Positions 449 through 39,964 of a DNA stretch of 64,000 nucleotides are shown piece by piece. The notes beneath the pieces are model-generated. The model saw only the letters and a program-made list of their open reading frames with translations, made no database searches and was not told the DNA's origin. The position numbers and the translations under genes were made by a program. The stretch is from Rhytidiadelphus loreus. Lineage: Eukaryota > Streptophyta > Bryopsida > Hypnales > Hylocomiaceae. Location: the NCBI GenBank assembly GCA_947034895.1, contig OX344762.1, forward strand, positions 436,501 to 500,500, in the 5' to 3' direction. Within the stretch, counting starts at the first letter, position 1. Each line of letters opens with the position of its first letter.

Positions 449-480
449 CACTACAAGGAATTTGGGGTATAAATGACTGG
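449..480 (+). repeat. Left terminal inverted repeat of the giant CACTA element
   Basis: The terminus begins CACTACAAGG and is followed inward by repeated TGACT/AATGACT motifs, the sub-terminal motif clustering typical of CACTA ends. It pairs with 39933-39964 with small mismatches and one-base gaps. TGG at 446-448 is the target duplication. Confidence 0.85.
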
Positions 481-1671
481 GCACAAATGACTACTTGTCC
501 GCTTTGACTAAAGAATGACTGATTACTCTGTAATTGCACCATCCGGGAGTTGGTCTGAAGGTCTAAGTTGTGTTGCAATCATGGCTACGACTCCAAGATG
601 ATGTAGTCACTAAGAACGACCTTCGTTGATGCATTTTCTGTTGACTTTGTCATGTCTCTGTTGGAGGTTTGTGCTTTATTTAGGATGTGGCCACTGGAGT
701 CATTAAGAAGACGTACGAATGTCAAACATTACGACTGCGGCCTATCGGCTGAGTCTTCTATTACTACTAAATGACTCAATGGTTTAGGCTCGGGCAAGCT
801 TAAATTTGCTAGGGAAACGACGGGCCGAGCATTTTTTTAAACAACGACGGTAGTCATTTTTTATAGTAACTCAGTTGCGATAGTACCCTCTCCAGTGTTG
901 TTTAAGGTTTACCTAGAAATGACATATCAAGTGTTACAAGCCGTTTAGGTATCTCTGAAGACAGGTCTACTACCACTAGCACATTTTAGAAGTCTTCGAT
1001 TGAAGACCTTGAATTTATAAGCAGTTTAGGGTTCATTGTATTTGGGGTATTTATGATAGCCATGCAGGAACCTTGAACCCTTAATCCAAATGGTTTCAAA
1101 ATTTCCAGCTAAAGAGACAGCTTCTGGATACCCAGTGCCCTTCTTTGATTATTTGAAATTAAAGAAGGTGCAAATTCTGCTGCTTTCATCATTAGGATTG
1201 GGAGTAATGAACAGTGGGTAGCATTATAAGGTTGCTAAACGGTGAACACATGCAAGGAGAGTAATGGAGTTATCAGTATTGAGTCTCCATTGCAAAAGGT
1301 AGGGCTGTAGGGCTGAAGTTAGATATGCAAGTTCATCTCAATGCTGCATCATGCTATCTAAAATGATTGTTTGCCAACCTTTCTGTTCCCTCATTAGTTT
1401 GCAAGGCACATGCACCTATTGTAGTTGTCCATGACATTAAACCGTGAAGATTGAGGACTTTCTCAAAATGTTAGAATTTCTTCTACATATCAGTACCTAG
1501 CCCTATCTAATTTTGAATATGGTCTTTCGTGCATAACTGTAACTCCAGTTTCCGGGCACTCTTCTGCAACTCTTCTACAACTCCTCTACTACTCCGGTTT
1601 GAAGCAACCTCAAATCCAGAATGTGCAACTCCGGCAAAACTTTTCTTCTACTTCTTTGCAACTTACCCTAA
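481..1671. other. Left sub-terminal region of the CACTA element
   Basis: There is no gene here. The first part is rich in TGACT and AGTCAT motifs. The last part (about 1530-1670) has clustered TGCAACT / TACAACTCC motifs, which reappear just beyond the nested unit at 25560-25680. That supports continuity of the CACTA sequence across the nested insertion. Confidence 0.6.
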
Positions 1672-1697
1672 AAACATCATATTCATTAAAATGGGAG
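1672..1697 (+). repeat. Left copy of the 26-bp inverted repeat
   Basis: The sequence begins AAACATCATATTCATTAAAA and ends TGGGAG. It is identical to the reverse complement of 25521-25546. A shorter second copy of its inner part (cattaaaatgggagttt) lies at about 1799-1815. Confidence 0.8.
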
Positions 1698-2110: not shown

Positions 2111-5100
2111 GTCTTATCCACTACCACCTTTTCTCAATTTTAATTCTTTTTCAAATGACATATACAAAGTCAATAAATATGGAAATTGAATTGAAACATA
2201 AAGAGTAGAGAGAACTTTATAAATAAAGTAATAAAAGATATATTGAATAGAATTTAAAAAGACACTTGTTGCACATGTGACTTCATACTACAAAATCAAA
2301 TCATAAAACTACAATCTATATATCTAATCTAGATCAAGTACAATCGATTATTTAAAATCCTTCTTAGTTATGCAAGAACAAAACAAAACAATAGCACATG
2401 TAATAAGAATAGTGAATACAATAAATAAAAACCTGAATGCCGTGTATGCCAAGTCGTCTATCTTCAATTGGAATTGTACGCAGACAAACTACCATTGATA
2501 ACGTCGATCTAAGCAGACGGTATTTTAAGGACACATTCAATTGTGTCCTTCTTCACCCTCGACTTCCAAGCCGTCACCAGTGAATTTGTTTCTTCCCAAA
2601 TTCGGTTTTGGGTGTCATCCACTTTCCAACGCAATCCTTTAGTGGAATCCCACCCAGTATAGTATTCTTGAATAGTTCGCTCACGTGACGTAGGCCGGAA
2701 GTATTGAATCAATACACAGTTAGGATGATTTGGGTTTGCAAAAGGGTCAGACAAAGTTCGCGCAATCCATATCGGCTTTGCATCTCCATCCGCTGGCCGA
2801 ACGGACACGAAATACCCTTCGAAAACATCACGGGCCACACGAAAAGATGGTAATGGACGATTGCAGAGTTGCCCTACGAAAGCATCATCTTCAGCAAACT
2901 CTTCACGCACCTCATCATCGTCATCAAGTTCATCCTCCTCTATCGTCTCCACGTGAATAGAAGGCCAAAAGCCGTCCTTCAACACAGCTGACGGTTCAAT
3001 TGGATCCTTCAAGGCTGCATTCACCGCCCGCCAATAGAACACTAAGTGTTCAAACCTTCTCCAGTATTCTCCACTGCCATCTTCATTGCACAATGCCTCC
3101 CAATACTTGATGAAGCCTGATAACCCTTTGTAGATCTCATCCAAACTTCGCATTGGGAGATGGACTACAGGCACTAGCTCCCCTCGAGGCCAAAGACTAC
3201 GTCCTTCAGTGTCCTCTCGCCATAATTTGATCCCTCCACCTTCCTCAGGGAGCCAATCACTATCAGTGTAATAGTGCTTGTATTTCATAACCAGAACCCC
3301 TGCGGAGTTCAGATAAAACTTGAATTGTTGTGCCTTCGTATGGCCAACAAGTGCCTCCTCTCCATCCAAAATGGAACCTTCTATGAAGGCTTTAAAATCT
3401 GGCACCTCCTCAATAAGGTGAGGAATTGTAGGTACAGAATCCACATCCATGAAGGACTTCATGAGAGATGGAATGGTAGGGAAGTTCTCTTTTTTCAACT
3501 GCATACTCCACCTCCCAAACAAGGCATCTATGTCATCATGCGTGTGCCCAACCAACATGAAACTAACATAGACCTCACGGAAGACCTTCTTAGCAACAAG
3601 AAGGGACCAAAACGCAAACACAAATCTATTCTTGTTGTCTCCAGTGGCGTTGTCCATTTGCACATTTAGAATCGGAGGAAGAGAAGTGGGAAGAATTGGA
3701 ACTTTGGGTTGTGGACAAAGCGAAGATTTGCAAACATCTGATCCTTGTAGCACAGCACAGAATAGAGGAGCGGAGCCGGATCCAACAAACAATTCCCGCG
3801 AGGAATACTTCGGTGGAAGCTCAAGATCTCGAAAGAGTTTTGCTAATGACCCCACCGTGTAGTTTGAGTCGTGAAGGAAAATGTCTAAACCATAATGAGC
3901 ATAACGCACATCATCGTGTCCATGGGCAATCATATCTGTCACAGAAACCAGTAACTTCATGAGCCCGTCCAGTTGTTTACTTTTGTGAGAGAACATAGGG
4001 GATGCCGTTTTTGCATGATCCATTTTGTCATGCATGATTGTCAAGCATTCGTGAGGATACGCGCTTGACTTGTAGCGATTTGCGTAATACTGATCTCGAT
4101 GTGCTCGAGCCTTTGCCAGATGCTTGTCTAATAGATGAGTCCACTTCCTCTGTAAACCATGAACAACGGTCCTCCTCAAAGTTTGTAGTTGATCACACTT
4201 AGAACACCTAGCAAAATTGTCCCCCGGCTTTTTGGCACTGAATTCAGGAAAGTTCAGTTTCCTAATCTTACTCACATTAGAAGCTGAAACTTCTTTAAGT
4301 CCGAACATTGCATTTGCTGCATTGACCTCTGGAATAGTTTCCTTCCATGTGAAAGTAGCCGGCAAGATCATGGACACCTTCTTTTCTCCAGATGGAAGAG
4401 TGTATGTGCGATGTGGCATGTGATCCGCCGACTTATCAAGTAGGCACTTCAACGTCGCGGTGGCTTGCACAGTATGTCTCCTAGGCTTTTGCGTACCGAA
4501 GTTTCCATGAGGTTGAGCTTGATCACCTCTCGTAGAGAATCCTTGGAAACGATGGAATGTTGTCTCCGAGACACCAGCAATATGTCGCCATGCTGCCAGG
4601 TAAACATCAATTCCTTCGATAGTGACCACTCTCTTCCCTTGGGCATCATGATGGACTTGATAATAAACATCTAGTTTCATGTGGTACCGGAACTCGAACG
4701 TTGAGTTGTGGTACATGCATTCACGGAACGCACGAATCTTCTCCCTTGGAAAAGGTTGAATGCAATTGCTGGAGCAGCAAGTTTTGCTCGACACCAAATT
4801 GATTGACTCTTGAGTGAGCAAGTCCCTGGCCTTCACACACGTCTCCAGACGAGGATTCCTGATAGTAGATGTATATGGTCTCGAGCTTGTAGAGGAAGTT
4901 TGTGCACGACTAGCTTCCCGACGATTGTATTCATCACGAACTTCATGATCGCGAAGACTTGATCCATTCAAGAACACACGTTCGATTGGCCAAGCACGGA
5001 GAGAATACCTCCAATCCACTAGAACATCTTCAGGACGCAGCAATTTAGAGATGTGTACGGCGATAAGAGAATCTCCAAGGGGGCCATCAGAACCAAGGAC

Positions 5101-7074
5101 AAGGTCGGAATTCACATTGTGGCAAAGACCCTCCGCTACAGGCAAACCATCCACATTGTGAAGGATGACCACCTACGTCATCCAAAGCCTCCAAGGGATA
5201 CCTGTGAGCCCCAAATTCGTCACTTGGGACTCATTGTTTTCTTTTTTTTAGTTTATTACAAATTAAGGTATAAAGTAGTACAAAAAGCCCAAAAAAGAGT
5301 GTAGAACCAAAATAGGTATGTCACGTACCAGTATAGCATTTGGTCATAAATAGCCTTTTATCCATAGATTACCCATAAAACCCACTTGTATATAGGTTAG
5401 AACCCGTAATTAGTGGGAAACAATAGGGCTACTAGGAACTTACCCAAAATAGCCCAAAACCTAGTGCATGTGACCATGATAGGCTAAATTAAGTCTTAGG
5501 AGAGTGGGGGAGGTCTCCACATAAATCTCCAAAGATAGGTTCTAGTTTCCCCATTCCACCGACGAAACATTAGGAATCCAAATTGTTAGCTTGCAGGTGT
5601 TACTTGTCCCAGACAGGCCGCATGGAGGAATCCACAGCCGACGGATAGTGTTCTCGGATCTGGAGCATGTCGGGACATCTACGGCAAAACCCATTCGCCA
5701 AGATTCCCTCACATGTAAAAGATTCCCTGACTGCCGGTGATTCAACCGAAGTCAGTTTTCACCACGCCACCAATTGTGTGCCAGAATAGCCTAAGACTTG
5801 GCACATGGCTTGGGGGACTCTATGAGAGGTTCCCCAAAAAGTCTCGGTTTTTTCTGATCTCCAAAGGATCTTTTTCCGAGCAGTCAACCGCCAAAGGCCA
5901 CGTTGGGAAATTCATGGAAAATACCCAGGCCGCGGTAAAATCTCACTAAAAATTAGACTAGCATCTTTTATGTTAATAACGCGCCCCGACAAATTTCATG
6001 GTGTTCCAATAGCGGGAAGCAGCCGAAACTGACAACATCCCCCCAATTAATATTTACGGCAAGATCCTTGCGGGGTTGACCGGCGTCCCGGGAGCGTACG
6101 AAGTTGGAACGAAGACATCAAGGAGCCTTTTCTTACTCCCTAGAGCCTCCCCAACAACCCTAGCTAGTTACCCAAGCCAAAAGAGGTAAACCCCAAAAGT
6201 TAGGTTTTTACCCTTTTAATTGGCTCCAGTTGGCACTAGTTTCCGAGGGGTTTTTTGTGATAGAAATAGGGGGTAGGGAGTCCTTTAGGCTAAAAATGGC
6301 ATTCTGAGGCCATTGGCGCAATCCATTTGCAATTCCGAGCTAAACTCCAAAAGTTAGAGACTAGGACCAGCGTAAAACCCAAAATTAGGTGAAAATCTCA
6401 AATTTGGATGAAAATCCGGATGGATGAGGTTACTCGTCGAGGGGGGGAGTGGGCCCTTGGAAACCTATAAAAGGGGGCCCTTCTCTCTCCCAAAACACCC
6501 CCAATACTTGTTTTGGGTCCGTGGGTCCAAGTTATCTTGGCATTTTTGGCATTTAGGCCAAAAAACCTCTACGGTGTTTTCGGAGCACTTTTTGCTCCCG
6601 TTGTTGTTCTATTTACAGCTTTTGTAGGTTCTTGGAGTCCTTCTCGTTCACTTGTACTTCGTGTGTCTTCTTTAAACATCTTTTGGTCACATTTGGAGAG
6701 TTCTTGTAAGTTGTCTTGTGTCGTGCATTAACCCCGGAGTAACCCCCCACCGTACCTTGGCGATGCCGCTTTGGAGGGCCTTTGGTGCATAAGTCCTTTC
6801 ACGTTATCATCTTGCGTGTACGTGTGCCTTGGAAGTAAGTTCTAACCATAGTAAACCCCTTCTTTGTTGTTGACAAGTGGACCCACCTTTCGGGGGACGG
6901 CGAAGCTTTGACCCTATGACCCCTTAGTCCTAAAGAGTGTGTTAAAACGAGTCCTAGACGGCGGAGCTTTGAACCCCAATCCATTGCAAGTCCTAAAGTC
7001 GGTGTTAAAACCGATTCTACGGCGAAGCTTTGGACCCCGGTAGGTCTAAATTCCAAAGTTTAGTTCCCAAGACC

Positions 7075-7145
7075 TTCTTGGGAAAAATTAAAGTTTAGTT
7101 CCCAAGACCTTCTTGGGAAAAATTAAAGTTTAGTTCCCAAGATAC
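7075..7145 (+). repeat. Short tandem repeat inside the LTR
   Basis: The phrase built on gttcccaagaccttcttggg and aaaaattaaagttta occurs about two and a half times in direct succession. The core ccaagaccttcttgg is itself palindromic. A diverged equivalent lies in the inverted relative near 42565-42615. Confidence 0.6.
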
Positions 7146-8040
7146 CCCTAGGTGGTAGAAACGCGGAAGAAACCCCCCGCCATGAGATAGATTGGTCAAC
7201 ATCCAAGTTCTTTCCCCCACGGCGAAGCTTTGACTTCAAACACATCAAAATTAGTCTAGCCTCTTGTTTTACCTCGACCATAATCCGTAACGTCCGGTTT
7301 AGTTTTTAGTTAAGTGGGTTCCCATACGGGAACCCAAGGTTAGGAAAGGAGTAAAGACCAGGGCCAGCCAACCAGGGCTAGCCAGTCAGGACCCCAGCAG
7401 CGGGCAACCCAGCCAGCCGGGCGACCCAGCAGCGGGGATCCAGACAGCGGGCACCCAGACAGTGGGCTTCGGGGGAGGGGGGCCAGAGCTTCGGGGAAGT
7501 TGGGCCAGGGCTTTGGGGGGGGGTCCAAGGGTTTCGGGGGGGAGGGGGAAGAGAAATCAAAAGAAGGGGGATCAAAACAAAACATACAAAAGGGAGGGGG
7601 AAGAGAAATCAAAAGGGGGGGGGGAAAGAAAAAGACAAACTCCAAGCGGCGCCCTGCAAACCACATCCTCAACCTCTCAAACCAAACCTCACACAATGAT
7701 GACAAAATTAGGAGGGGGGTAGTTATAGGAGAGGAAGAAGGGAGAGACGATAAATAGTGTTGCGTCATAGGATTAGGTAGGAAATCTCCAAAGCTTCTTG
7801 CAACCATTAGGAAAGAGATTAGGATGACACCAAAATGACGACGTAAGAGAATAGGTGACTCTTCCATTAGATTAGCGTCATACGGTGTAAGGCCTCATTT
7901 AAGGGGTTGGTAGGAATAGTGTTGAAGGAAAAGAAAAAGAGATAAGGAGAAAGGAAGGGCCCATTACGGGTCTTTAGAGTGTACTACTTCGCCAAAGACT
8001 AAGCCGTAGGCAGTTTACTACTTCAACCTACGTGTCGACT

Positions 8041-8103
8041 ATGGAATACGAGCACGCGGCCGGAGGTATGGAGGAAAAAGTCGCGCATGCCAACTTCGAT
8101 CAG
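8041..8103 (+). other. Conserved 21-codon mini-exon with splice donor inside the LTR
   Basis: ATG opens a 21-codon frame beginning MEYEHAAGGME, which runs straight into a consensus donor (CAG|GTGAGT at 8104). The inverted relative at 41596-41534 has an equivalent frame (MEYEHAARGME...) ending CAA|GTAAGT. Conservation of the start, the length and the donor between diverged copies suggests a leader exon of the parent retroelement, spliced over the AT-rich array into an internal exon absent here. Confidence 0.45.
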
Positions 8104-8394
8104 GTGAGTCAGTAAATTAATCCCCAGTGCTTTTTTCTTTTGATTTGTGCTAAATTCTGTTAAGAGGTGGTCAATGTCGATTAGCAATTAGGAATTAGAC
8201 TACAAAACAAAGTAGAACAGGATAGGATAGGACTAGGGATTAGTAAACCGTTAGGGTCAAAATTCAACCAAGAAGTTAAACATTAGATGAGGACAAAATA
8301 ATCCAATTAGGAGTTAAGGTTAAAATAGCCAATTAAAATTACCTTAAGTAATAACGACATAGGGTCAAGGGTAGAACATAAAAAGATAATTTAA

Positions 8395-8800
8395 ATTGGA
8401 AAAACTAAATTAGATTAGAGGATTAAATTAGAAAGATAAATTAAATTAGGAGATAAATTAGGAGAAAAGATAAATTAATTTAGAGGATTAAATTAGGAGA
8501 TAAATTAGATAAATTAAATTAGGAGATAAATTAGATAAATTAAATTAGGAGATAAATTAGGAAAAAAGATAAATTAATTTAGAAGATTAAATTAGGAGAT
8601 AAATTAGATAGATTAAATTAGGAGATAAATCAGATAAATTAAATTAGGAAAAAAAAGATAAATTAATTTAGAGGATTAAATTAGGAGATAAATTAGATAA
8701 ATTAAATTAGGAGATAAATTAGGAAAAAAGATAAATTAATTTAGAAGATTAAATTAGGAGATAAATTAGATAAATTAAATTAGGGAAAAAGATAACTTAG
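8395..8800 (+). repeat. AT-rich tandem array
   Basis: Phrases such as attaggagataaattagataaatt recur many times with small length changes, making an irregular array of roughly 25-75-bp units. It lies downstream of the mini-exon donor, in what would be an intron or leader. Confidence 0.8.
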
Positions 8801-9337
8801 ATTAGGAAAAAAGCCCAATCAACTTAGGAAACCATGGAAGGGACTTAGGTAATCCCTCCTCAGTCTTAGGAAGGGTCAATTAGCCTCAGATTTCCATAGA
8901 TTAGAATAGATTCGGTAGTAGTTCGCATAGGCTGCCGTTAGGGGACGGTTAGCCCGAACTATTCCCTCGCCAATTGGGGCAACCCCATTGTCACCTGCGG
9001 AAACTAGGAACTTAGTAAAGAAGATCCATTGCTTGGAAGGCACAATGGACCGACGCTTAGTCACCCGTTAGGTTAGAATTTAGTTAACCCCTAGAACCTG
9101 GTTGTGTCCGATTAATTACCAAGGGTGGGTAATTAAGTGCCCACAATACCCTCACAGTTAGAAATGTTGATAGTTTCCTCTGGATCATTGTGAATCTCGC
9201 CTTCATCGGAAGAGTACTCAAGCACCACCACCATTCCGTTCTCCATTACGTCTGTCAGAGAACCACAAACAACTGAGTGGAAGAAAACAAGACATACCAG
9301 AAATAATTTGGAAGAAGGAAGGAACCAAAGTATCCGT

Positions 9338-10160
9338 AATTCAACTCGGCCCGAGTTGAATTACCAAACAATAATGAAACCATATAGACCACTGAATTTC
9401 AGGACACCAGTTCATAACATCTAACACAATTCCTTGTACAGAAGAAGAAGACAATAAACACCGGAATTCACTGGGAAAAAAAGAACTAACCTCAACCAAA
9501 AAACACTTCTACTCTAGATTTGCAGGTACATAAAAACAATAATAATGTTAATCATTTATATTGTGTCCATTCATTCCTGAACCACTGAAGTTTCATTGTT
9601 CTCGATTATTATTTTCATATTAAAAGATCCCTGTGAAATTAATTAGGAATTCAAGATTCAACTCGCATCGACTTAAAAATCATTTGATATGAATAAATTA
9701 CTCGTAGGCACATTAATCGTAAAAAGAAAAGTTAGAGTTGCCTAAAACCATGATCACCATGACATCCAGTGATAATAAATCAATTCAGAGAGGTCATGAG
9801 ATCCATCCAAAGAATCTTCATTGAAGAAGTATTGTAAACAAATACCAATCACTGTTGACCATCACTGCATCATAGTATACAGTCCAGCCTTTTAACTCGA
9901 GTCAAGTTGAAAGACGACAGCTCATTAACATATATCAAGAATTTCCAACGAAAACAAAACAGAACGCTACATCGTATCTATTCAACTCGAGCCGAGTTAA
10001 ATAATAGGTAAAGAGCGGTGAAATTATTTTACATTAATTATAATTACCATGTGAATTTCATTACGTGATGCGATATTTAACTCGAGCCGAGTTGAACAGT
10101 ATACACAGTTATTCTTTAATGTTTTTGTGGTTATGTCGTTAACTCGAGTCGAGTTGAATT
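9338..10160. repeat. Palindrome cluster upstream of the DUF7869-like gene (6 copies)
   Basis: Copies of the palindrome aattcaactcgagYcgagttgaatt lie at about 9338-9362 (perfect 12-bp arms around one base), 9656-9677 (degenerate), 9891-9912, 9981-10001, 10075-10096 and 10139-10160. They lie between the probable 5' splice-acceptor region of the minus-strand gene and the inter-gene region. The same family recurs around and within the ParB-like gene from 18.1 to 22.9 kb. Confidence 0.85.
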
Positions 10161-12828: not shown

Positions 12829-12852
12829 TTAGGGTTTAGGGTTTAGGGTTTA
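12829..12852 (+). repeat. Interstitial telomere-type repeat (TTTAGGG)n
   Basis: Three perfect tandem copies of TTAGGGT plus a partial copy match the canonical plant telomere repeat. The tract is short, followed by diverged copies (tttatgttttatgg), and lies inside transposon-derived sequence rather than at a chromosome end. Confidence 0.8.
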
Positions 12853-25520: not shown

Positions 25521-25546
25521 CTCCCATTTTAATGAATATGATGTTT
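25521..25546 (-). repeat. Right copy of the 26-bp inverted repeat
   Basis: It is the exact reverse complement of 1672-1697. Outside it, CACTA-type TGCAACTTC / TACAACTAC motifs resume at 25565-25660. Confidence 0.8.
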
Positions 25547-25921: not shown

Positions 25922-28900
25922 CTAGTAACCTTCTTGAGCTAGTAAGTTATCCTCCTCTGATAATTCTATAGCTCCGACTAGATTAACTATGTGCGGTGGA
26001 ATCGGCAATTGTAGAGGAGCTCTGAGGCCTGTGCTCTCCATTGTAGTGGTAATGAATGCGTCCGCACTGTCCACGACTTCCCATCTCGCTCTTGCTTCTT
26101 TGCGTAAGACCACTTTCTAGCCAGGTCTTTCCACAACATCGGAAAAGAATACTTGCGTGGCCTGGCTTGGAAATATGAAGGGATCTGCCATACGAGCTAG
26201 TTTGTGGCGGAAGTTCACCAAAAGGAATCCAGAATCGTCCCTAATATATGTCGAGTTACCTCAACTATCGTGGGTCTTAATACACTCACAACGCAATAAA
26301 ATGATGGGTGTACTCAAAGCATCATAATCCAACTCCAAAACATCTTTTAATACTCCCACATAATTCACTGCTGACTCCTCGGAATTTTCAGTTGAATGCT
26401 GAAAAATAGAAGCTATTTTGCTATTGTAGCTGACCAAGTGTACGCTGCTTGAATCTTCAACATGAAAGTGGTTTCCAAATGCGATGACCCTCGTGTACCA
26501 GGTGGCTCTTTGTGATGGTTTCGTGCTAAGGAGAAAGTGGTCCATGTCCTCTGGGTTCCCCAAATTGCTGTCAACATCTCGCATCGTCCTTTGCATCCAC
26601 TTTGCCAATGCTGGAGTACTCGAATTTTCTTCTGATTCAATTTTCCACTACCTGCACATTCACCAAAAGTTCTGTGATGAGCACGGGATGGGACAAGGAC
26701 ACCAAGTCACAACAAGCTTAGGAGAGTACTTGTTTAGGTCCAGACTAAAAATATGACTTGCACCTCATTTTCTGACTTGTACGTGACTTCCACCAGTCAC
26801 AATTAAGTCACTACAAAGACATTCATGGGGGACATGACTCATGAATGACTTGGTAAAATCCATTGTGTTGCTACAAGGCAAGATTCACTTATGGATGCAT
26901 GAAGAACACTACTTGAGGAGGTTAAGCATAATTGAATATGATCATTTCACACAGAAGGGTTAAAGGTACAACTTACGCGACAAAAGGCTGCAAAATCAAG
27001 ACATTGGACAACACATACTGGTGTGCCATGTCTCTCATCTCTACGCTCATCACATGTAGCTTTCCAGCTCCTTGTAGAACCTCTTCGACATCTCTGTACT
27101 CTTCATCTTCGTCCCATACACGTCTCTGGGTGGGCTCAAATCTGTGGAGGTACTCCGTGATGAATCCAATGCACTCATCCTTTAAGTATCCCTCTGCCAT
27201 GCAAGCCTCCGGTCGTGCTAAATTGCAAACATGGTTTTTTAGCACTTTCATGTACCGTTCCACCAGATACATCCACCGTGCACTCACTGGTCCACACAAG
27301 TCCAGCTCCTTCGCAAGATGGTATGGGAGATGCATCATGATGTCAAAAAAGGATGGTGGAAACTCAATTTCCACCAATGCCATGCTCTCTACCACGTCAG
27401 CCTCTAGTAAAAGAAAGTTTGCAGGATTGTATACCTTTGTGCAAAGACGCCTAAATACTTTGCACATCCTCATGACAGCCATGCGAGGGCCAGGTTGCAG
27501 TATTCCACGGAGAGCTAAGGGCATCACTTGCTGCATTAGAACGTGGTAATCATGAGACTTCAACCCCCCAAAGTTTTTCTTGTGGATGCACTTCCCAAGG
27601 TCAGATGAATATCCACTGGGTGTCTTCAATGACTCTATGCACTTGGCAAACTTCTCAAACTCTAGATCTGTCATAACATATGATGCCTTTAGCTTCACCA
27701 TCTTCCCTGCCTTTCGTGGGTGCGAAGTTAGCTACAAGTGCTTCCTGACATTTCTCCTTTGCAAGTCTCTGCGGACTTTGACAGTGTCTTTCTTCCCGGT
27801 AATTGTTTTCAAGAAGTTCTTTGCCAAGTTGAGTTCGCAGTGCATAACATCAAGCGTGTTTCGAATGAGGAGATACTAAAAATGCAGACAGAGATGCGGT
27901 ATTAGTTTCTACTCATAACGAGGTCATAAACTAGTCATTGTTGAGTCAAGAAACATGACTACCTCTATTCTACGACTGGTAAATTACTAACTTGCTACTT
28001 TTATATACCATAGTAGTTGCATTTAGGTTACCTATCAGTCATTTCCTCCAATTAAGGGAAGGACTTATAAAACTCACCTTCCAATATGGCAATCTGAAAA
28101 GAATGCTCAGACGCTTCAAGCCATGTAATTTAGATGGGTCTCCAGCAGCACCATCTCTGTTTCCAGCAGCTCTCCAAGCTTCGCACTCCAATGCATGCTG
28201 GATTTGTTCCTCCACTGCCACTGCGTGCGGTTTTGGGCGGTTTTCCAAGCACCCATCAAAGTAGTCCTTCATTTCTACTGACCGGTACGGATGATCTTCA
28301 GGGAGCCAACGACGCATTCCAGCATAAGTTTGTTTACTGAGTTCTGTAGAATGTTCAGCGCCTAAATCCTTGCCGCACCATGGGCAAGCCGCATACCCCT
28401 AATGTGAAAATCCGCCAACTGTGCCGTAACCTAGGAAATCATGGATAGTCCACAACAACATGGCTCGTAATTGGAAAACCCTGTTGCCAGCATCTTTAGA
28501 TACGTCATATGCCGGAACTCCAAACCATAATTCTAGCAATTCATCCACGAGTGGCTCTAAATATACATCAAATACTTCAATTGTGACGGATTTTCTCCCA
28601 GGAATCAACAAGGCCAGTAACATAAAAAACTTCTTCATTGTCAACCACGGCGGTAAGTTGTAATTCAATAGCAAGACAGGCCATGTGGACCATGACGAGC
28701 AATTTTGCTTAAAAGGATTCACTCCGTCAGTTGCCAACGCAAAATGAACATTTCGGGGATCATTTCCAAATGATGGATCCACATTCTCTTCAAAGTGCTT
28801 CCAAGCTTTTGAGTCACATGGATGCCTCACAAGGCCATCACCTCCTTCTTTGTCACTGCGATTTTCCGCATGCCAGACTATGAGCTGTGAGATCTTGGGA

Positions 28901-29873
28901 CTCATGAACATTCTTTGCAGATGGGGGATGATGGGAAAGTGACGGAGCACCTTCACTGGAAATGCGCGCTTCTCTTCGTCTTTGTATCTGCGTCCGCCGC
29001 ACTTAGGACAACAAATGGCATTCTCATGAGTGCCACGGAATAGTACACACCCATGCTCACACGCATAGATCGTGTTATATATGTCAACCCCAATTTTTTA
29101 GTCAAGGTATTCGCTGCATGATAGGTCTTTGGTAGGGTGTTGTTCTCTGGTAGCAGATGAGCATGCAAAATGTTGAACAATTCGTTGGCGCAGTGGTTGC
29201 TGATGCCATGTACTGTGCATAGGTTCATAAGGAGTATAGTAGCTGCAAGCTTGCTGGATTTAGCCCCATCATACAACTGTTGTAGGGACTCCTCAAGTAC
29301 TCTGGCGTCAAAGTCTGAATTCTCGTCGCCTCCATCCCTAGGTTGTTGTCCAGCTTGCTCTTCGTCACGACATTCTGCAGTATCTGCTACGTCCCCTACT
29401 AAGCCTTCCATACAGTCTTCGTGGACAGAGTCTGCAGTGGCAAAGGCATCCCTCACTTCCTCAGCCAATCTCTCTGTTGAACAAGTTTCCTCTTGTTGAT
29501 CCTCTGCTGAAAAAGTGTCCTCGAGCGGTGGAGTCATAGCTTGGTCGACCATCCCACGAGTATCAACTATAGCATCCAAATTTTGTGATTCCTCTGTAAG
29601 AGGTTCCCAAAATTGTTGTTCCCATTCTTCATCTAAGGAGTCTCGAATGCCTGGACCTCTCCAAGTCCGACAAGTTGAATCCCTGCCATTGTGAATGAGG
29701 TGCTCTCGTACGTTGCGAACAAATAGAACCTTGTGGCCTCAACATTTTGTACATGGGCAATGCAAGTGTTTCACATTGTACTCAGTCGCCCTCTGCAACT
29801 CACAAATCCACAAGCGGTCATCTCGTAGTCTTTGTCTCCGACTATCGGTTAATGGAAATCGTGCAGATATCAT
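25922..29873 (-). pseudogene. TNP2-type CACTA transposase pseudogene (Transposase_21, DUF4218, DUF4216)
   Basis: The start ATG is at 29873-29871. The best exons are 29873-28078 (donor AAG|GTGAGT), 27875-26977 (donor CGC|GTAAGT) and 26647-25922. The N-terminus has the HCPCTKC zinc motif of transposase-associated domains, then a CxxC pair, then the tnp2 core (YNLPPWL...LLIPGRKS, VYLEPLVDELLELW, LLWTIHDF) at about 28.4-28.7 kb. DUF4218 follows (FPPSFFDIMMHLPYHL, GPVSARWMYLVERYMKVLK) at about 27.2-27.4 kb, and a DUF4216-like C-terminus (YVGVLKDVLELDY, PFIFPSQATQVFF) at about 26.1-26.4 kb. These are the standard parts of the CACTA transposase that cuts at the TIRs. Defects are a one-base frameshift in the T6/A6 run at 29094-29099, TGA at 29741-29739 and 26263-26261, and TAG at 28401-28399, 27734-27732 and 26119-26117. 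It is divergent from the plus-strand gene, as is usual in this superfamily. Confidence 0.85.
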
Positions 29874-30082
29874 GGCGTTGCAGAATTGAAATAATAACAA
29901 GCCTTCTGTTGGAAATACTTGATAGAAACAACTTTCTCGAGGGACAAGATGGAGAGTAGGAAATTAGCATCAAAACTGGAAGAACTGGACCTCCTTTGCT
30001 ATAAGATTGAAGTCATTGTTACATAACTTATATATGTCTTCAGTCACTCTTCAATGACTGACACATGTCTTCTACGACTGTT

Positions 30083-30593
30083 AGGGTTGTCTATCCGGAC
30101 GTGACGTGGGCTTTTCACGTCCGGATGTCATGACGCGTCCGTCCTGACGCGTCGATATTGCCGTCAGCCCAAAAAAAAAAAAAAAAAAAAATTTTTTTTT
30201 TTTTTTTGACAGCCAGTTTGGCACCCTGGAGCAAACCAGTGAACAGCTAGGTCGTCAAAAAAAAAAAAAAAAATTTTTTTTGGACGGCCTGTTCGTCGAC
30301 CTGGATAGCCAGTCCATCCACCGTTCAAGTCGACAATTTGACCGTCCAGGTGACAGCCCGACTGTCCCAGTGGACGGACTACCCGACTGTCCCAGTGGAC
30401 GGACTACCCGTCAAGGTGGATAGACCACCCGTCCAGGTCGACGGACGGACCGTCAGGATTAAAAAAAGAAATTTTTATTTTTTATTTTTTTTATTTTTTT
30501 TTATTTTTTTTAATCCTGACGGACGCCAGGGTTGAATCCTGACGTCCGTCTGGACATCCTGACGAACGGACAGGACGTGACGGTGACAACCTT
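30083..30593. mobile_element. GC-rich foldback element with A/T palindromes
   Basis: The ends are AGGGTTGTC and the near-complement GACAACCTT. The interior is packed with both orientations of GACGGAC / GTCCGTC. It contains a run of 21 A then 16 T at 30171-30207, a run of 17 A then 8 T at 30257-30281, and a T/A-rich spacer at 30462-30512 flanked by attaaaaa and tttttaat arms and by cgtcaggatt / aatcctgacg. The whole could fold into a long imperfect stem. It is probably a MITE-like insertion between the two CACTA genes, although I found no clean target duplication. Confidence 0.6.
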
Positions 30594-30969
30594 GGCGACT
30601 GCATTGTCACTGCAATACGTACAACACAGTTGCACTCAATTATGAGCACAACATTCTTCCAAACTCTATACATCTTTATGGAAGGGAATTGACGGACAAA
30701 AATGGTGGTCCTACAATTTAGAATTGCATGTAATCTTCTAAGTCTAATCACTCATAACCAACAGAAGCAATGAAGACAGCCAATGCCACAACGTACAACA
30801 GGAAAGAATTGTGAAGGAATAAGTTTTTGGTACTAAAATATTCATGAAAGAGAAAATTGGACAAAGCCAGAATTCCTGTCTAACTTCCATTAGTATGGAC
30901 TCATTTACAACTTTGGCTACTGTACATCCTTGCTCTTAGAAGAAGACGCACTTCCAATAGGAGTGGACA

Positions 30970-31398
30970 TTAAGAAGCTCCTTCAATCAAGGCTTCCGTG
31001 CTAACGTCTCCATTTTCTCCTTCTACTATTGTAGTATGGCCTAGTGCTAGTTCTAACCAAAAATGGAAGCGACGGTCTAGCTCTCTGTTTTTTTGAGATG
31101 TACTATCTTCTATTAGGCCTCCTTCAGAGGAACATGTGACCACTGGGTGTACATAACTCTCTTTGGAGTCTGGTGTTGCATTTTGTTTTAAGCCCCCCTG
31201 TGCAATTGTAGCCTTCAAAATGGACAGACGTGAGGAACAATTGCAATCTGGGACGTGGATGTCTTCATTTGAATCCAGGCTAGGCAGTCTACGTCTTTGA
31301 CGACGGAACAATGGGGCAGCTCTGAGAACCCTACGCTTCGGCATTGCTAAGTAGTTTACAGGAGTTTCGGGTGGGACACTTTTGTGGCAGTAGCTCAC
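30970..31398 (-). CDS. 142-codon frame between the CACTA genes, function unknown
   Basis: The frame is open from a probable splice acceptor (cacgtag at 31404-31398) to TAA. An internal ATG starts MPKRRVLRAAPLFRRQRRR, a strongly basic patch that could bind nucleic acid or act as a nuclear signal. The rest is unremarkable and I recognise no family. It may be a 5' exon of the minus-strand transposase gene, a small third CACTA protein, or chance. Confidence 0.3.
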   Translation of the reverse strand: MSYCHKSVPPETPVNYLAMPKRRVLRAAPLFRRQRRRLPSLDSNEDIHVPDCNCSSRLSILKATIAQGGLKQNATPDSKESYVHPVVTCSSEGGLIEDSTSQKNRELDRRFHFWLELALGHTTIVEGENGDVSTEALIEGAS

Positions 31399-31727
31399 CT
31401 ACGTGTATACATGGTTTAGGGTAGTGAATTGGATTGAATACCTGACAATACGTCATGGTTTCAGCCTTGGGAGGAATGTCTTCTGCACTTGGGGGTTCAA
31501 ATTAGGCCTGCACATCAACGGACCAAAGGCGGGTCTCGTGTTATTGAACTCACAAAGACACTTACAGTGTTTCAGATAGAAAGTGCTATTCTAAGAGGAG
31601 GCCCAAAAAAAATGGGGAATAGAAGTGCACTTCCCCTTTAAAATTTACAATGTAGTCAATAGTCCGTACTCATAGAAAAGAAAGAAATCAAAGTCTTACA
31701 CGTCCATTTGCACAACAATTCTAGGTA

Positions 31728-31848
31728 ATGGATGCACAAGCTTTAAAAAACTTGTTGTGCAGGAAGTTATCCTTCGCAGACGAGGTAGCTCGGGATAAGC
31801 TTCGTAGAGTTGAGAAGTCCTTTCTGAAGCTTCCAATGACAAAAGAGG
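31728..31848 (+). CDS. Candidate first coding exon of the plus-strand CACTA gene
   Basis: ATG at 31728 opens a charged, helical-looking 40-codon segment (MDAQALKNLLCRKLSFADEV...) that ends at a possible but weak donor (GAG|GTTAGC). It lies upstream of the better supported exons beginning at 33475. I assign it only tentatively. Confidence 0.3.
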
Positions 31849-33474
31849 TTAGCCTTCTAATTTTTGGTAGGTAAGAGTACAATCTTTACGAGTAGTTTCA
31901 GTACAAGGCAGTGGTGAAGCGGACCCAAATTAGCATTGAAATCTCTTCCCATTGCGTGGTGAAACGGACCCAAATTTACATGACTACAGAAACAAAATGA
32001 CTACTTCAGAACTTAGTTTTGTGCTAGGAGCCTCATATTCTATATAACCCTGTGACTTCAAAATGACTTCTACAAGTGATGTTTTAGTCATGCTAATTTT
32101 CGTACTACAACATCACTGAACAATGACTTTTTCAAGTAATTAACTTTGAAAAAGACTTTAAGCATGTTTGGTAAATGGTAAGCCACCATTTTAAAAACCA
32201 AGTTTTTTGGATAGTATAAGACTCATTAGAGACATATATGACTTTGTGTAAAAACATATAGTTTAGTAATGATTACCTGCATAGCCTACTTGTCATTTCT
32301 ATTGCAATACATGCACTCAAATCCACATTAGAGGCTGAATGTGCCAATCCACGCTGTCTTACAGTCACATCACTAATTACTGAAATAAGCACTTAATTAC
32401 AGGCCGCCAAAACCAGCCTCATTCATCATGCAACGCCCAGTTCCACCGCCACTTCCTCAAGCTCTGGGAGCCTATACGTTTCATTTGCACTGCATCCTTG
32501 TTGTGAAAACAAGTGCATGGGACCAACTGTAGCTTTTAGCGATGTGTCCAGGTGACCGAGCTTCATGAAGTTCGTGTCCAATGCGTGAGGACATACAATC
32601 AGGACGGAGTGCGTTGATCTAGAGAATTCTGAGCGTTGATACTACAGGTTAGCAAGAAGAGAACGAGGTGTTGGATTGGCGGCGACTTACTGATGTCAGC
32701 AGATTCCGCGATGGAGAGTCCGCCGCCCGAGAAGGGTGACTACGAGCTTGCACGAGATTGAAATGTTGCGGAGAATTTGAAAAAGCTTGGGCCCGCTTTA
32801 GCATTGAGACAGGAGATGTAAAATCTCTTACCTTCTATACACTCAATTCAAGCACTGCTCATGATACGAACTTCTAGTGTAAGGAAAGTAGCAAAAACCA
32901 GTAGAGTATGGAGAGGGCTGAATGTCAGGAGTCTCTTTTGCATGCTTGGTCGAAGGCCTTGGAAATAGACTAAGAGCAGTTTTGGGGGCGCCTCTGTTTG
33001 ACCGTTGTTTTTGTAATTAACTCTTGTACGCATTCCAATGCAGAATGAAGGCGATACCCTAGGGTTTTGGTGGACTTTGAAATGGTTGAGGCATTGCACG
33101 GTGCATGAGTTGTTCTGTAGTTGACCGTGTGTGACCTCTAAGTCACATTAAATGTCTTCAGACAGTTTTGCAACTGCCTTACAATAATTTTCTAGTCGCA
33201 TACTAGTGCAGTCACAATCACGCATGCCAAAACTCCAGAAGTCGTCATTAATAGTTGCTATGGCCACATGGAAGCCTTCTGCGTCTTGCTTGTAGAAGCA
33301 ACCTACCTCATAGATGTCTAGGAAACCCTACCCATTGTCACATTTCCGGTTAGGAGATTAGCAGCACTCCAATTTGGTCTCACAACCCCTCTGCCATACC
33401 ATCTCTGCGCTCATATGTGCAATCTAGAATTAAGCCTTTCATGTAAACTAAGGCTTCCAATTATTGCGCTATAG

Positions 33475-36400
33475 GGACAACGACGAAGCCAAGCGGAAGC
33501 AGCAGAAGTCTCCTGTGAAGAAGAAGCAGGAATTAGGTCCCTTGCGGCGGAGTTCGAGGCGAAAGGGAGATTCAGGACGTGAGGCAGGAAACAAGCGTGC
33601 AAGCCAGCGGCGTCAAGGAGCTACTACAAATCCAGACATGAGTAGCGAGCACGGTTCAAAGTCAGAGGCGACAAAGTCCAGTGAGGAAGAAATCGCGAAA
33701 GGTATGATGAATCTCACAATTGCTTGTAAACTAGTTGAGCGGGAATCGAACTCCAAGGCAACTACTGCAGGTACATTGGCATAACGCTTCTTTGTACTGT
33801 GGTTCGTGTTAGGGTTCGATGGATTGGCATAGCGCTTTTTTCTACTCTGGTTCATGTTAAGGTTTTCTAAATTGGTACTGGATAGGGCAACAGGTTTATG
33901 CACTTAGCGTCCATGTGTACCGCCAAAGCATTCAATTGCCGACAATTTAGGGGGTCATATGTCGCAGGTGGGTACTATGCAAACTGCACTTGCCCAATCT
34001 CACTCATTGCATGTTGGTCATATTTGATTTGTAGATGCTCAGCTCCCAATAGTAGACTCATCCGACGATGAATTCAATGGAGTAGATGAAGAACCACTGA
34101 TCGATCCGAGGGCAAAGCGAACAAGACAGGTGCCGCAGTCGCCATCATCAACTCGGATACTAGCCGAACCACTTCCTCAACCACCGAAACCGCTCGCAGA
34201 AAGGAATTTTTACGGTCAACCTTAATGGAATTGGGTCCCAGGGCACTACATGCCAAGTTAGGCGCCATCAAGTGGTCCTTGGTGTAGCGGCCCCCATCGG
34301 CATTGCCAGGGGTGTGGCCGGGCCAACCATCAACAATGCAGGAGCAATTTTCAGCAGCCATGTCCTACGAAACTGAAGAACGCTTGTCGTGGCGCAAGAA
34401 GAAAACAACATATGACCAAGGCAGTCGGGAGCGGACCTACTCTGGAATCAAACCAAACCGAGTGACTGTGCTGCCAAGCGGGGAAGTGGACGGGAACTAC
34501 GAGGGAAAGAATGCATGGGACGAAGCCCTTAGGGACTTAGTCCCAAAGACTCTAGACATGAGCATTGTGGACTAGAAGGAGCAGTTGCCTCACACTGTGA
34601 AGAAACTGAGAGAAGCCCTTGATGCGGAATTTGAGTACGTGGGCACCCCCTTGAGCATGAGTGCTTTTCGAGGGATAGTGACAAGGCATCTGAAGGCCGA
34701 AAGATCTCAGCTTAAAACACGGTACTTGAAGATGGTTGAAAAGGGAGCAGTGAAAGCTCCTCTTTGCGTGGATCCAAAGCAGTGGGACCGACTCATTGAG
34801 TATTGGAATACTCCAGCCCAACAGGAAAAGGCACAAAAGATGGCCGCAGCACGTCAGAGCGTCAAGAATTATGACCTCATAGGGAGGAAAGGCAAGGCCG
34901 GAAAAGATGTACAAGCAGTAAGTGTTCCATGCAAATTGGTTGAGTTCCTTAATGGTTTTCAAAGTATGCCTTATTGTAGCTTGGCATAGCTTGATTGTAA
35001 TCATAAATGCGGTCCCAAGTAATGTTTGTCTTCTGTATACTTTGTAGAGGGCAGGAGGAAATCTGAACCCGAGCATCACAGATATAGCTGAGGGGAGGCG
35101 GTCAACAGTAGGGCTTGGATCTACAGACACGATAAGATCCTTCGTTGAAGTTGGTTGTCTTTGGTGTCACCTTAGTTATGTTCGGTTCAATCAATTCCGT
35201 GGTGTTGGAAGTCCACGCTTTTGTATACTTCTTACAATTCAAAAGTAAAGCGAAGGTCATAGGGAACAAAAGGTCTCTTGTTTCATTCACGTACTTGAAT
35301 TTGTCATGTATGAGTATGGGGCTGACGAAGTAATGTAGTAGTTGTTTTTCTGATTGACGATTGAAAGAAAGTCTTCTTTCAGTAGATTGCATTGGCCAAA
35401 CTAGGTAGACCCTTAAGCGTTCCATAGTCACAACATTCCTTATTGTCTACTTTAGCCACAAGTGCGCTTAGGCAAGTTGTACCTCAAGTATTATTCACAC
35501 AACGTCAGGTAAATCAAGCACTTTCCATCTTCTTTTCTATGCGGAAAGTGTACTACGTGGAAGGGCCACATCCATGGCGGTCTGCATCTATGTCTTCTTC
35601 ACGCATGTTGTCCCAAGTCATATATAAGTCGCCCTAAGTTGTGATGTATGACTTGCACTTTAGGAAGTCGCACCTTTGTTACGCAGAAGTCACGTGTCAG
35701 TCATCTTGTACATTGTGGTGACTTGTACCTAACATTGAAATGACTGATAATATTTTCATCTACGGTTGTGGGTTACAAGATGGTGGGGGCAGATGATTCG
35801 GGTCGGTGGCTGGTGATGGAGGCTTGGAAGGTAGATGTGGACGTTAAGTTTGACAAATTGGTCTCCAGCAGTACAGCCCAAGGCAAGGCAATAGATGAGC
35901 TGCGGTTCATGTTCCAGGAGTATATGGGCAACAAAAAACATAGGGACGATGCCAACCCATCCATCACACAATAGGTGCTAGAAAATGAAGAGACGCGCGC
36001 ACATCAAGAGGGTCGAGCTGGCAGATTTCTACCTCATCCACCAAAAAAAGGTATAGCCATGGATGCCATCACTCACAAAGACAGTGGGGCCTTCAAAGAG
36101 AAACGTCGAAGCAGCCAACCACCTGTGAAGAAAGTGGACGACCATACCATTGCAAAAGCTTCAAACATTACCCTTGATTCCTCAAACTCTGAGCTACCTA
36201 AGACACAGAGGACGGCATTACAGAAGAAGTCAGGCAAGCAACAGGGGAAGGGAGTGAACACCAAATCTGTGATTGAAGAGGAGAAGTCCTCACTGAAAGA
36301 AGTTACTCCTCCGGCATCAATAGCTGAAAATCCGGCTCCTGCACCATAGTAGAAGTCCGTTGTGGACATCACCCCTAATGAAGATGAAACACCAGTAAAA

Positions 36401-38878
36401 GTAACTACAACTGCTGGAATGGAAGTATTGGCGGAGAATAATGACACCGCCGAGGAAAATATTGCAGCGGAGGATTCCTCCGGACAGGACACAGTGAAGC
36501 CTGTAGACAACACAAACATTCTTCCCTCGACCAATGAACTGAACTCGGGCAGCCCGGCTGATGAAGAAGATGTGGGCGTTGAAGTTGAGGCTGTGGACAA
36601 AGCCGAAGTCGACGTTGAAGGCTCCAAAGGAAATGCCGAAGAAGAAGCCGCACTAGAGGTCCCGCAGAAAAAGTCCAAGAAACCACCGAAGTCACCGATA
36701 AAGGTAAATTCACGGACCGACGTTTCTCCGGTAACGTTGAGGGAGGTGAGTCCTTCCGGTGCACCTGATCCCATTTTCGAAACAACGACCTTCCAAATTA
36801 GTAATCTTTAATGTCCATGGTACGCTTCTAGATTGTAGTTTATTGGTTGCGGAAAATCCAAACACTAAAATCAGGATTAGCATCAAACTGAGTTGAGGAG
36901 AGTGGTTTTCAGGCCTTGGTTGAAACCATTTCTATTCAAATGCTTCCAAAAAATTTATGTTGCTTTTTGGGGTAGCAAGAGTCAAGCATATATGGATGAT
37001 GTTGTTCCAGCAGTACTTGCTGGCTTCAGCGGTATAGGTGCAGCCCCACTGTTTACTTGGTCTAGTAAACGTTGTGAGTGGCAAGATGTACAAGATGGGT
37101 CAGGTAGTGAACTTGTGAAGAATTTATCGACAGTTTATGCAACATGGCCCACGTTTAGTTGTGAAAACACTTTAGTAGTAGATAGTAGGCATAATAGGGT
37201 GGCTACCAACCCAGATGCTAATGTGATCATCAGCCCTCCTTTCTATGTGGAATGGATTTCCACATTGGCAGAGGACAAGGAGTAGTTGAAACGGTCCTTG
37301 TGGCCACTATTGGAGGCTTGGCAAGAATGCCCAAACATGGCAAGCTTTCGATCCAAATTTCCAGAATTTGTCAACGAATCCATGTCAGAAATGCTACAGA
37401 GACGACGAATTGGAAAAGCATATGAATTTCGGGACATTGAGGAAGGTGAGGGGACTGTCCAAGTAGTGGGTTGCAAATGTCACGGCGTCCCCTCGCCTTC
37501 CTTTGAAGTTTGTATCTAACAATTAGCTTCTGCCTTCTGCACATGTAGGGAAAGGCACAGAAGCGAGAACCAAAGAACAAGGCAGCATCGGCAGCGGACA
37601 AGAAAGGTTTCGGACCATCCGTGAAGAAGGTATGTTGAATTCAAAGCCTGTAGAGCGTTTCGGTTTCCTATTTGAAGAAGTAGTATTGTAGTTATTGTAA
37701 AGTCATTTTCCAGAGTTTGTGAAGTCATTTTAAAATTTTGTGAAGTCAGAACACTATGAACTAGCAAGTATGCAACTGTGGAAGTCGCTCATCAGTGATG
37801 TGTGCATCGTAAGTTGTATTTCAGCAGAATTAAATCATCCTTCAAAGGAAGGCAATGGCCCGTTTCAATAGCAAGTCCTACTAACAAAATCCCTCTTTTA
37901 AGAAATGGTTGTCAGCAACACGTGTAGGCAATCTTCTTTGTCAACGTGTTTGTTGAACCTATATAGGACTAACCAAATTTTCCGTTCTTGTCTTCACGTC
38001 ATAGCAGTCTCCATTAGACGTAAGTGAGAGTTCTGAAGAAGATTTTGGTATAGCACTGCCTTCTATAAATGAAACATTTTAGGACCAATGTCTACTTAAA
38101 ATACGGGAAGTCTTCAAATGGACACTAAAGGTAAGTTATGAGCTCACATTGGTGGATCCTAACCCCTCTTCAAGCATCCTTTCAGCCAGGCATGTAAAGC
38201 GCCTGACTTACAAGCTTGTTGTATAGTATTTGTTTTCTTATGCACATGTAGACTCTACCAAACCTCTGTTGTGCATAACTATATGCATGCCGTGTTGTGG
38301 TGACATGAACAGTGTGATTTATAGGTCCATTTTGGTACTACGTAAAGCTATGCATCCGAATTTTGTTCCTTGTATGCATAGACTTCCGTACGGGTTGAAT
38401 GCAAGTTAGGGTAGTGGACTAGTTACATAGAAGTAAAAACAAAGTGACGTAGAAGCGACATGCCAACTCTTCAAAGTCACATGTAAGTCAAGTGAAAGTC
38501 GTGTAGAAGTCACGTGGAAGTCACGTATAAGTCCAATATTGGCCATGTCTTTGTTACATTAGCTTGAAATGTCCATAATGACAGGTTCTTTAATTCTTGA
38601 CTTCTGTGCAGTATAAGGTCGGCGACAAAGTGTTTCTCATGAACCCACGTTTGATCAGGCAGAAAGTGGCGATGGGAAACATTAGTGGATTGCCTGGCCA
38701 ACACAAATTCCACTTTCGGGAGATTCTGGAGACATGGTTGAAGGTGGACATTCGGGAGGTCATGCACGCAGGTGTGGCGTTTATGTACCCCGATTCCACA
38801 AACGAGCAAACACATATAGAACATGTGAAAGGGACAAGTACAGTGTGGGACCAGAAATACTTGAAGCTAAGTAGTTGA
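33475..38878 (+). pseudogene. CACTA second gene (PF03004 / TnpA-type) with HAD-like domain, decayed
   Basis: Likely exons are 33475-33770 (basic Lys/Arg/Gln-rich), 34035-34917, 35048-about 35200, 35768-36745, 36802-about 37506, 37549-37629 and 38612-38878. Phase matches at 33770/34035 and 34917/35048. The second exon contains the plant Ptta/En-Spm transposase domain (Transposase_24): RRS..L-type basic segment, HLKAERSQLKTRYLKM, then WDRLIEYWNTPAQQEKAQKM followed by an NYDLIGRKG turn. The last exon (VFLMNPRLIRQKVAMGNI...EVMHAGVAF...VWDQKYL) resembles the C-terminal tail of these proteins. The middle is acidic and Pro/Ser/Lys-rich. In-frame TAGs lie at 34573, 35972, 36347, 36350 and 37283, and at least two frameshifts are needed (34.2-34.35 kb and near 36.89 kb). 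Proteins of this type bind CACTA sub-terminal motifs and assist the TNP2 transposase. Confidence 0.7.
36802..37519 (+). pseudogene. Degenerate FCP1-like HAD domain inside the CACTA plus-strand gene
   Basis: Motif I position reads IFNVHGTLLD near 36804 (both catalytic acids replaced, by Asn and His). After a one-base shift near 36890 comes FRPWLKPFLFKCF, then motif II-like YVAFWGSKSQ near 36955, and motif IV-like ENTLVVDSRHNRVATNP near 37160 followed by a PLLEAW helix. The order and spacing match plant FCP1-like proteins (RPGFLEFL, VGVWSS, NTLLLDDSPYKA). One TAG at 37283 interrupts it. The domain is almost certainly inactive as an enzyme. It is distinct in sequence from the HAD exon at 23.55-24.5 kb. 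Confidence 0.55.
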
Positions 38879-39932
38879 GTTTGCCTTCTTGGTGAAGCAT
38901 CTGTACAGAGAGGCCCAAATTTTTGGATCTTCAGAGTCTTTGAATATTGTGAAAAGACTATAGATGGTAGGTCAGAATTGTCTGCACCCATGTCCTGCCA
39001 CCTCTTTGCTGTGAATTCTATGACTACTAGGGTGCTTCAGTGCTTTTTAATACATGTTTCATATGCCTCCTACGTCAATACGTGCATTATTGTGTCTGTG
39101 AATCCTACTGCATGCCAATGTTTTCAAGACGTCCATTTAGTGCCAAATAATGATGTTGAATGCAAAAGTCATGTTATCTATGCGAGTTGTGTTACAGTGA
39201 AGTATATCCATTCAGTGTAGTCATCAGGTGTTACATGAGGGAGTCATTGAGAAGTGAAGATATATTGCTCTGTGAACATCCGGATGCATTGGGAAGCCCA
39301 GAACCCCTACACTCGCAAGACAAGCATTAGGCAATCACTTTGGAATGAGCCTAGTAGTCCAATTTATGACTCCGAAGGAACTGAAGAATGACTACATCGA
39401 GTAGTGGCATCCATGTTGTCAGTCGCAACTAAGAATTCCAAACTGACTCAAAAATGTCTTAGCAATGACTAGTATTGAAAACAATTTTCAGTGCCCATAT
39501 CAGCACTTCAGGGACACTAGCACGACTAAAAAATGACTCCATAATTATCTCTTGACAACATCCACGTCATCACAGCGTTGACTTCAAGTCAACTGGAAAA
39601 TGACTCCATAATTGGGTGACTTGGATGTCCACGTCACCATGTCGTTGACTCAATTGCGACTAGAAAATGACTGCAAAAATGGCTGAGTTCTATAATGTAG
39701 CATCCAAAATTTAATGAAAAAATGGTCTTCTACCTGACCGAGTGCTCAAAAATTCCCTGACCTTGCCGTGCCACATAGACACTACCATCCATGCCTTCAT
39801 CCTTCCTCCCAACTGGATGGTGATAATAAAACTAGAGTCATTTAAAGAATGACTTGTCCGGAATGACTTCACGGGTCTGAAGTCATTTTACAGTCATTGT
39901 GGTCCGAAATGACAGTTTTGCAGTCATTTCGG
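38879..39932. other. Right sub-terminal region of the CACTA element
   Basis: There is no gene. Dense AATGACT / AGTCATT motifs run from about 39350 to the terminus, mirroring the left end. Related aagtcacgt motifs are also packed into the introns at 37680-37760 and 38440-38530. Such arrays are the expected binding sites of the TnpA-type protein. Confidence 0.65.
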
Positions 39933-39964
39933 ACAGTCATTTATACCCCCAAATCCTTGTCGTG
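39933..39964 (-). repeat. Right terminal inverted repeat of the giant CACTA element
   Basis: Read inward on the minus strand it begins CACGACAAGGATTTGGGGG. It pairs with 449-480 and differs at the fourth base (G instead of T) and by one-base gaps. TGG at 39965-39967 completes the target duplication. Confidence 0.85.

Follow-up and report, generated by a model that had tools for sequence, protein, structure and literature searches.

How a 39.5-kb block of DNA bounded by CACTA-transposon ends was put together is the question raised by a 64,000-nucleotide stretch of the moss Rhytidiadelphus loreus (assembly GCA_947034895.1, contig OX344762.1, positions 436,501 to 500,500 of the forward strand), hereafter the window, in which all positions are counted from the first letter. 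A first-pass annotation had read the block, positions 449-39964, as a single insertion event that fills 60 percent of the window. The block is probably composite: a CACTA element of about 15.6 kb sits in a TTAA-flanked repeat and has been entered by a second transposon of 23.9 kb, here called N. With its host repeats and a further insert, the locus reads as a five-deep nest of transposons.

The CACTA insertion and its host repeat

The DNA between 448 and 39968 is evidently inserted. The block has CACTA-transposon ends and lies, as read from its sequence, inside a 0.9-kb TTAA-flanked repeat that resembles a miniature inverted-repeat transposable element (MITE); outside the MITE lies X, a repeat resembling a long terminal repeat (LTR).

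1-91 (+): left flank, part of the LTR-like repeat X, which resumes to the right of the MITE and runs to about 42990; placed by alignment to an X copy
92-448 (+): left part of the host MITE, TTAA at 92-95 followed by CCCTTAAAGGACC; placed by the relative copy at 44020-44925
446-448: left TGG target duplication
449-479 (+): left CACTA terminal inverted repeat
449-1671: left arm of the CACTA element proper, with subterminal AATGACT motifs
25547-39964: right part of the CACTA element proper
26976-29738 (-): CACTA Tnp2 transposase gene, broken by an in-frame TAG at 28399-28401; placed by domain matches and homologues
34576-37282 (+): possible TnpA-like region, with a weak Transposase_24 match at 34576-34986 and a second NIF domain at 36881-37282
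39934-39964 (-): right CACTA terminal inverted repeat
39965-39967: right TGG target duplication
39968-40531 (+): right part of the host MITE, ending GGTCTTTTAAGGG, then TTAA at 40528-40531
44020-44925 (-): second MITE copy, without the CACTA element

The two ends of the block, CACTACAAGGAATTTGGGGTATAAATGACTG on the left and CACGACAAGGATTTGGGGGTATAAATGACTG as the reverse complement of the right, are identical at 28 of 31 positions; the next-best match to the left end on either strand of the window reaches 20/31. A scan for the end pattern with up to three mismatches finds only the ends at 449 and 39964, and two or more sites appear in 3 of 100 shuffles. The left end starts with CACTA and the right with the variant CACGA. 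The 3-bp target duplication, TGG, is present once in a related empty site, which emerges when the flanks are rejoined: 1-448 plus 39968 onward aligns to 44724-44036 of the minus strand at 78% over 692 columns, with no gap across the junction. Identity beside the junction is 54/60 on the left and 51/60 on the right, against 32/60 for the best of 20,000 random 60-mer pairs. Of the left flank, the BLAST alignment to this relative covers only about 118 bp. An inward end match of about 30 bp, TGG at both borders and an inverted, uninterrupted relative of the rejoined flanks (here at 44.02-44.93 kb) had all been claimed before, and all three hold.

Subterminal repeats and a transposase gene add to the CACTA signature. 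AATGACT, a motif chosen from the CACTA ends themselves, is crowded at both of them, with 19 copies in 2.3 kb where 1.1 are expected from the rest of the window. The broken Tnp2-type gene encodes Transposase_21 (PF02992; 28042-29097, E 6.4e-51) and DUF4218 (26976-27731, E 6e-32) domains, and its in-frame TAG falls within the former. Relatives of Tnp2 number 459 at E 0.001 or better, the best 120 of which entered the peptide comparison described below. The Transposase_24 (PF03004) match of the possible TnpA-like region (E 3.1e-4, 21.4 bits) lies below the Pfam cut-off of 28.7. In its CACTA-type inverted ends, 3-bp duplication, subterminal repeats and Tnp2 with Transposase_21 and DUF4218, the element resembles plant CACTA (En/Spm) transposons; it differs in its CACGA right end, in having Tnp2 and the possible TnpA-like region on opposite strands, and in hosting a likely 23.9-kb element. 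Beside the Tnp2 exons, at 26809-26870, CACTACAAAG is followed by AATGACT-type motifs, a possible remnant of another CACTA end.

The CACTA element appears to have landed in a TTAA-type MITE, and the 44-kb relative is, on the same sequence grounds, another copy of that MITE, since what aligns is a 0.9-kb repeat ending in TTAA. With the CACTA element taken out, the host MITE measures 913 bp between its TTAAs, and its end is a near-perfect inverse of its start. MITEs of the piggyBac type have a TTAA duplication and CCC...GGG inverted ends. The host repeat shares both features (CCCTTAAAGGACC versus CCCTTAAAAGACC) and a length below 1 kb, but no transposase is seen for it, and the family link is drawn from the ends only. 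In a moss genome paper, the string piggyBac was found only within "piggybacking" (PMC10619864). Host MITE and second copy are identical at 640 of 867 aligned bases (74%), divided into 204/311 to the left of the junction and 436/556 to its right; the second copy has TTAA at both ends and degenerate end repeats of its own.

The MITE has a related empty site in turn. Positions 1-92 joined to 40529 onward align across the TTAA to an uninterrupted X copy, which lies inside the CACTA element at about 6694-9035 on the minus strand (at 60.2%, in 2664 columns of which 430 are gaps). With two related empty sites readable in the same nest, the sequence by itself reveals the order of several insertions. 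The CACTA element would have arrived after the MITE; Tnp2, reading AATGACT-type subterminal repeats, would have cut the element out and pasted it at TGG.

Element N, a probable nested transposon, and the rival readings

N is likely a second transposon nested inside the CACTA element. Its candidate borders, one of its genes and an insert in that gene are as follows.

1672-1697 (+): left member of a perfect 26-bp inverted repeat, likely the left end of N (about 1673), with a possible 4-bp TAAA duplication
2512-5202 (-): main part of the DUF7869 gene, with an open reading frame (ORF) of 887 amino acids at 2512-5172 and an in-frame TAG at 5173-5175
5203-9145 (-): 3.94-kb LTR-like insert within the DUF7869 gene
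9146-9246 (-): N-terminal piece of the DUF7869 gene, reading MENGMVVVLEYSSDEGEIHNDPEETINISNCEG and assigned by visual comparison with the aligned N-termini of relatives
25521-25546 (-): right member of the 26-bp inverted repeat, likely the right end of N (about 25545)

The 26-bp repeat is the longest of six groups of perfect inverted repeats (at least 20 bp, more than 1 kb apart) in the window. The best border frame gives the possible 4-bp TAAA duplication; it scores 20 where nine offset controls reach 14-16, and most of that score comes from the 26-bp match itself. A search for terminal inverted repeats around the DUF7869 ORF alone, with 10-base seeds, returned none. Between these borders N (1673-25545) comprises 23,873 bp and leaves a CACTA element of 15,643 bp; the excess over the usual 10-15 kb had been ascribed to a nested unit, an attribution that these sizes support, given borders drawn from one inverted repeat. 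The motif CAACTY is dense on both outer sides of N, with four and two copies in 150 bp against a window mean of 0.14 per 150 bp, as if one tract had been split by N. Inside N, at 12829-12878, lie seven degenerate copies of TTAGGGT, which resemble the plant telomere repeat. A nested CACTA element starting at CACTACAA, position 18153, was also considered and is unsupported, since the exact 8-mers searched yield no partner end.

An LTR-like insert evidently splits the DUF7869 gene of N. It has TG...CA ends and a 5-bp duplication, ATACC, at 5198-5202 and 9146-9150. A search of its 3942 bp with the low-complexity filter on found no internal repeat pair, and thus no two LTRs around a coding region; the insert is at most a putative solo LTR. 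This insert would have arrived after N, whose own entry before or after the CACTA landing fits equally.

Whether the whole 39.5 kb could be one giant CACTA element, with the DUF7869, ParB-fold and NIF genes captured as cargo and moved together, is the likeliest of the rival readings, and it is improbable. Several observations favor it: both CACTA ends flank the whole block, NIF domains occur in both N and the CACTA part, and the 64-kb window shows no empty site for N. Against the borders drawn for N, part of the 26-bp motif turns up again, directly oriented, at 1795-1815. Precedents exist as well. The red alga Chondrus crispus is reported to have enlarged En/Spm families of 16-20 kb with four to five ORFs (PMC6431247). 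These too are CACTA elements with extra coding capacity, but the surplus DNA of the present block probably belongs to a nested transposon. Wheat chromosome 3B is credited with 140 CACTA gene-capture events (PMC4290129). Against a giant element, N has its own 26-bp inverted repeat and its own palindromes, its DUF7869 gene has a transposase-like model and comes from a family that is multicopy in mosses, and the CAACTY motifs on both sides look like a divided tract.

The NIF (CTD-phosphatase-like) domains, at 23554-24501 (+) in N and 36881-37282 (+; E 5.7e-9) in the CACTA part, resemble each other weakly (24.6% over 126 columns, E 9e-5).

The earlier claim of one event is divided: the CACTA insertion stands, and the single event is unsupported, as the 39.5 kb on present reading comprises at least three insertions, namely the CACTA element, N and the LTR-like insert in N. 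A single 39.5-kb event as something proven is rejected, N and the LTR-like insert being separate layers, and the 44-kb relative does not show that the inserted DNA came in a single event. Because N may have entered before or after the CACTA landing, transposition of the 39.5 kb as one unit is possible yet unproven. CACTA ends that lie far apart need not bound one long transposon.

It is very unlikely that the 44-kb relative is a duplicated locus or a product of ectopic recombination. In favor of that reading, the relative is inverted, only 4 kb separate it from the right end, and conservation is poor in the outer left part of the repeat; set against this, the aligned stretch is about as long as the MITE, has TTAA at both ends and is only 74% identical. 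As the alignment covers the 0.9-kb TTAA-ended repeat, an allele or duplicated locus is rejected, so that the "empty-site copy" of the first-pass annotation survives as a related empty site in a second MITE copy and not as an allelic or duplicated one. That 448 and 39965 never formed a junction, through assembly artefact or chance likeness, is scarcely credible: the locus is known here from one assembly, but the ends, the duplication and a related empty site that aligns without a gap all agree, and the flanks on both sides are also matched by a second related empty site, independent of the first.

The DUF7869 gene, the predicted ParB-fold gene and a 21-bp palindrome

What N might be is suggested by two genes and a 21-bp palindrome.

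9340-10158: six palindrome copies, upstream of the DUF7869 gene
18182-18656: five palindrome copies that precede the ParB-fold gene or lie at its start
18627-20156 (+): ORF g510 of N, with a ParB/sulfiredoxin-fold domain at about residues 320-450; 23 relatives, model and fold matches
20140-22927: five more palindrome copies, four of them in stretches reading as GT...AG introns, with splice borders judged by eye
20344-21624, 21835-22161, 22165-22887 and 23554-24501 (+): downstream ORFs of N, likely exons of the g510 gene

DUF7869 is a multicopy gene family in mosses. In its model an RNase-H-like core and a C-terminal SH3/chromo-like barrel are predicted, an integrase/transposase-like architecture by a weak match, and in these two predicted features it would resemble DDE integrases and transposases (Mos1, retroviral integrases, TnsB). 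Foldseek alone matched the model to nothing at E 0.001 or better, and the family profile matched nothing at E 0.1 or better among sequences of solved structures. The full text of the literature searched contains no mention of DUF7869.

The g510 model is predicted to contain the ParB/sulfiredoxin fold. ParB-type CTPases bind CTP through a GxRR motif. In g510 this motif is replaced by NGQH, and across the 24-row alignment conservation is 90% or higher for every one of its residues (N393, G394, Q395 and H396); since NGQH is conserved where GxRR is expected, g510 is classed by its ParB/sulfiredoxin fold only. Neither g510 alone nor its profile matched sequences of solved structures at E 0.1 or better. 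The exons of the g510 gene are an ORF reading with splice borders judged by eye; an in-frame TAG separates the ORFs at 21835-22161 and 22165-22887, and the ORF at 23554-24501 contains the NIF phosphatase domain of N. Bacterial and plasmid ParB, Noc and KorB are alike in the predicted fold of one domain and in palindromic sites clustered near their own gene. They differ from g510 in having GxRR and not NGQH; g510 belongs to a moss gene with apparent introns and has no ParA partner among the Pfam matches. By titles and the starts of abstracts, no such element appears among the listed matches in the transposon and moss literature on ParB, nor in the literature on ParB, sulfiredoxin and eukaryotic transposition.

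The palindrome, consensus TTCAACTCGAGTCGAGTTGAA, occurs 16 times with up to four mismatches, always inside N and nowhere else in the 64 kb, with six copies at 9340-10158 and ten at 18182-22927; three first-order Markov controls yield no copy at this threshold. A looser scan (up to six mismatches) gives 20 rows, the four extra ones at 1744, 18102, 20135 and 40810, against 4, 5 and 2 in the controls. A reading of the palindromes as the CACTA element's own subterminal repeats is unsupported, as they lie inside N and away from the CACTA ends.

Traces of the palindrome may extend to other mosses. Peptides resembling the palindrome were sought with patterns written after some such peptides had been seen. 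Among 23 g510 relatives, 4 have one close to the C-terminal end, against a shuffle mean of 0.05; among 107 DUF7869 relatives, a single protein has one, at its N-terminus (shuffle mean 0.2). A second DUF7869 match, to another pattern and mid-protein, is at chance level, and the best 120 of the 459 Tnp2 relatives contain none. These counts hint that the palindrome is common to both gene families in other mosses, the DUF7869 side consisting of one protein. No relative in viral contigs was found for g510, the g510 or DUF7869 alignments, Tnp2 or the palindrome, and the palindrome has no exact match in prokaryotic genome contigs.

Together these features suggest a possible mechanism. N, bounded by its 26-bp inverted repeat, would have moved separately, with DUF7869 as the DDE-type transposase moving it; the ParB-fold protein would bind the 21-bp palindromes crowding the 5' regions of both N genes and might act as a repressor of those genes or as an assembly factor or organizer of the element. 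More tentatively still, and with the odds against it, N could be the first seen of a new class of large plant DNA transposons with a plasmid-style partition or repression system, in which a DUF7869 DDE transposase is paired with a ParB-fold protein loading onto parS-like 21-bp palindromes in the control regions of both genes and its own introns. If true, a mobile element of a eukaryote would join a ParB fold to a palindrome array, with bearing on how large plant transposons control or keep copies. The most useful lead is N itself, through which DUF7869 gains a predicted transposase function.

All three genes examined (Tnp2, DUF7869 and the ParB-fold gene) have in-frame stops, so this copy is likely a relic that no longer moves itself.

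Other features of the window

Rfam and tRNA scans of the window gave no matches. A separate CACTA-like element of 1.75 kb lies at 59608-61356, with ends matching at 34/40 and CTT at both flanks. Positions 53116-54636 and 59608-60719 form a direct repeat in pieces (67-73% identity), and the former is likely a decayed relative of the 59608 element. At 51497-51716 lies a hairpin-type repeat, a 220-bp stretch matching its own inverse at 98%. An ORF at 48372-49031 (-), about 8 kb away from the insertion, encodes a chlorophyll a/b-binding domain (PF00504, E 8.6e-19) and is likely a host gene or a fragment of one.

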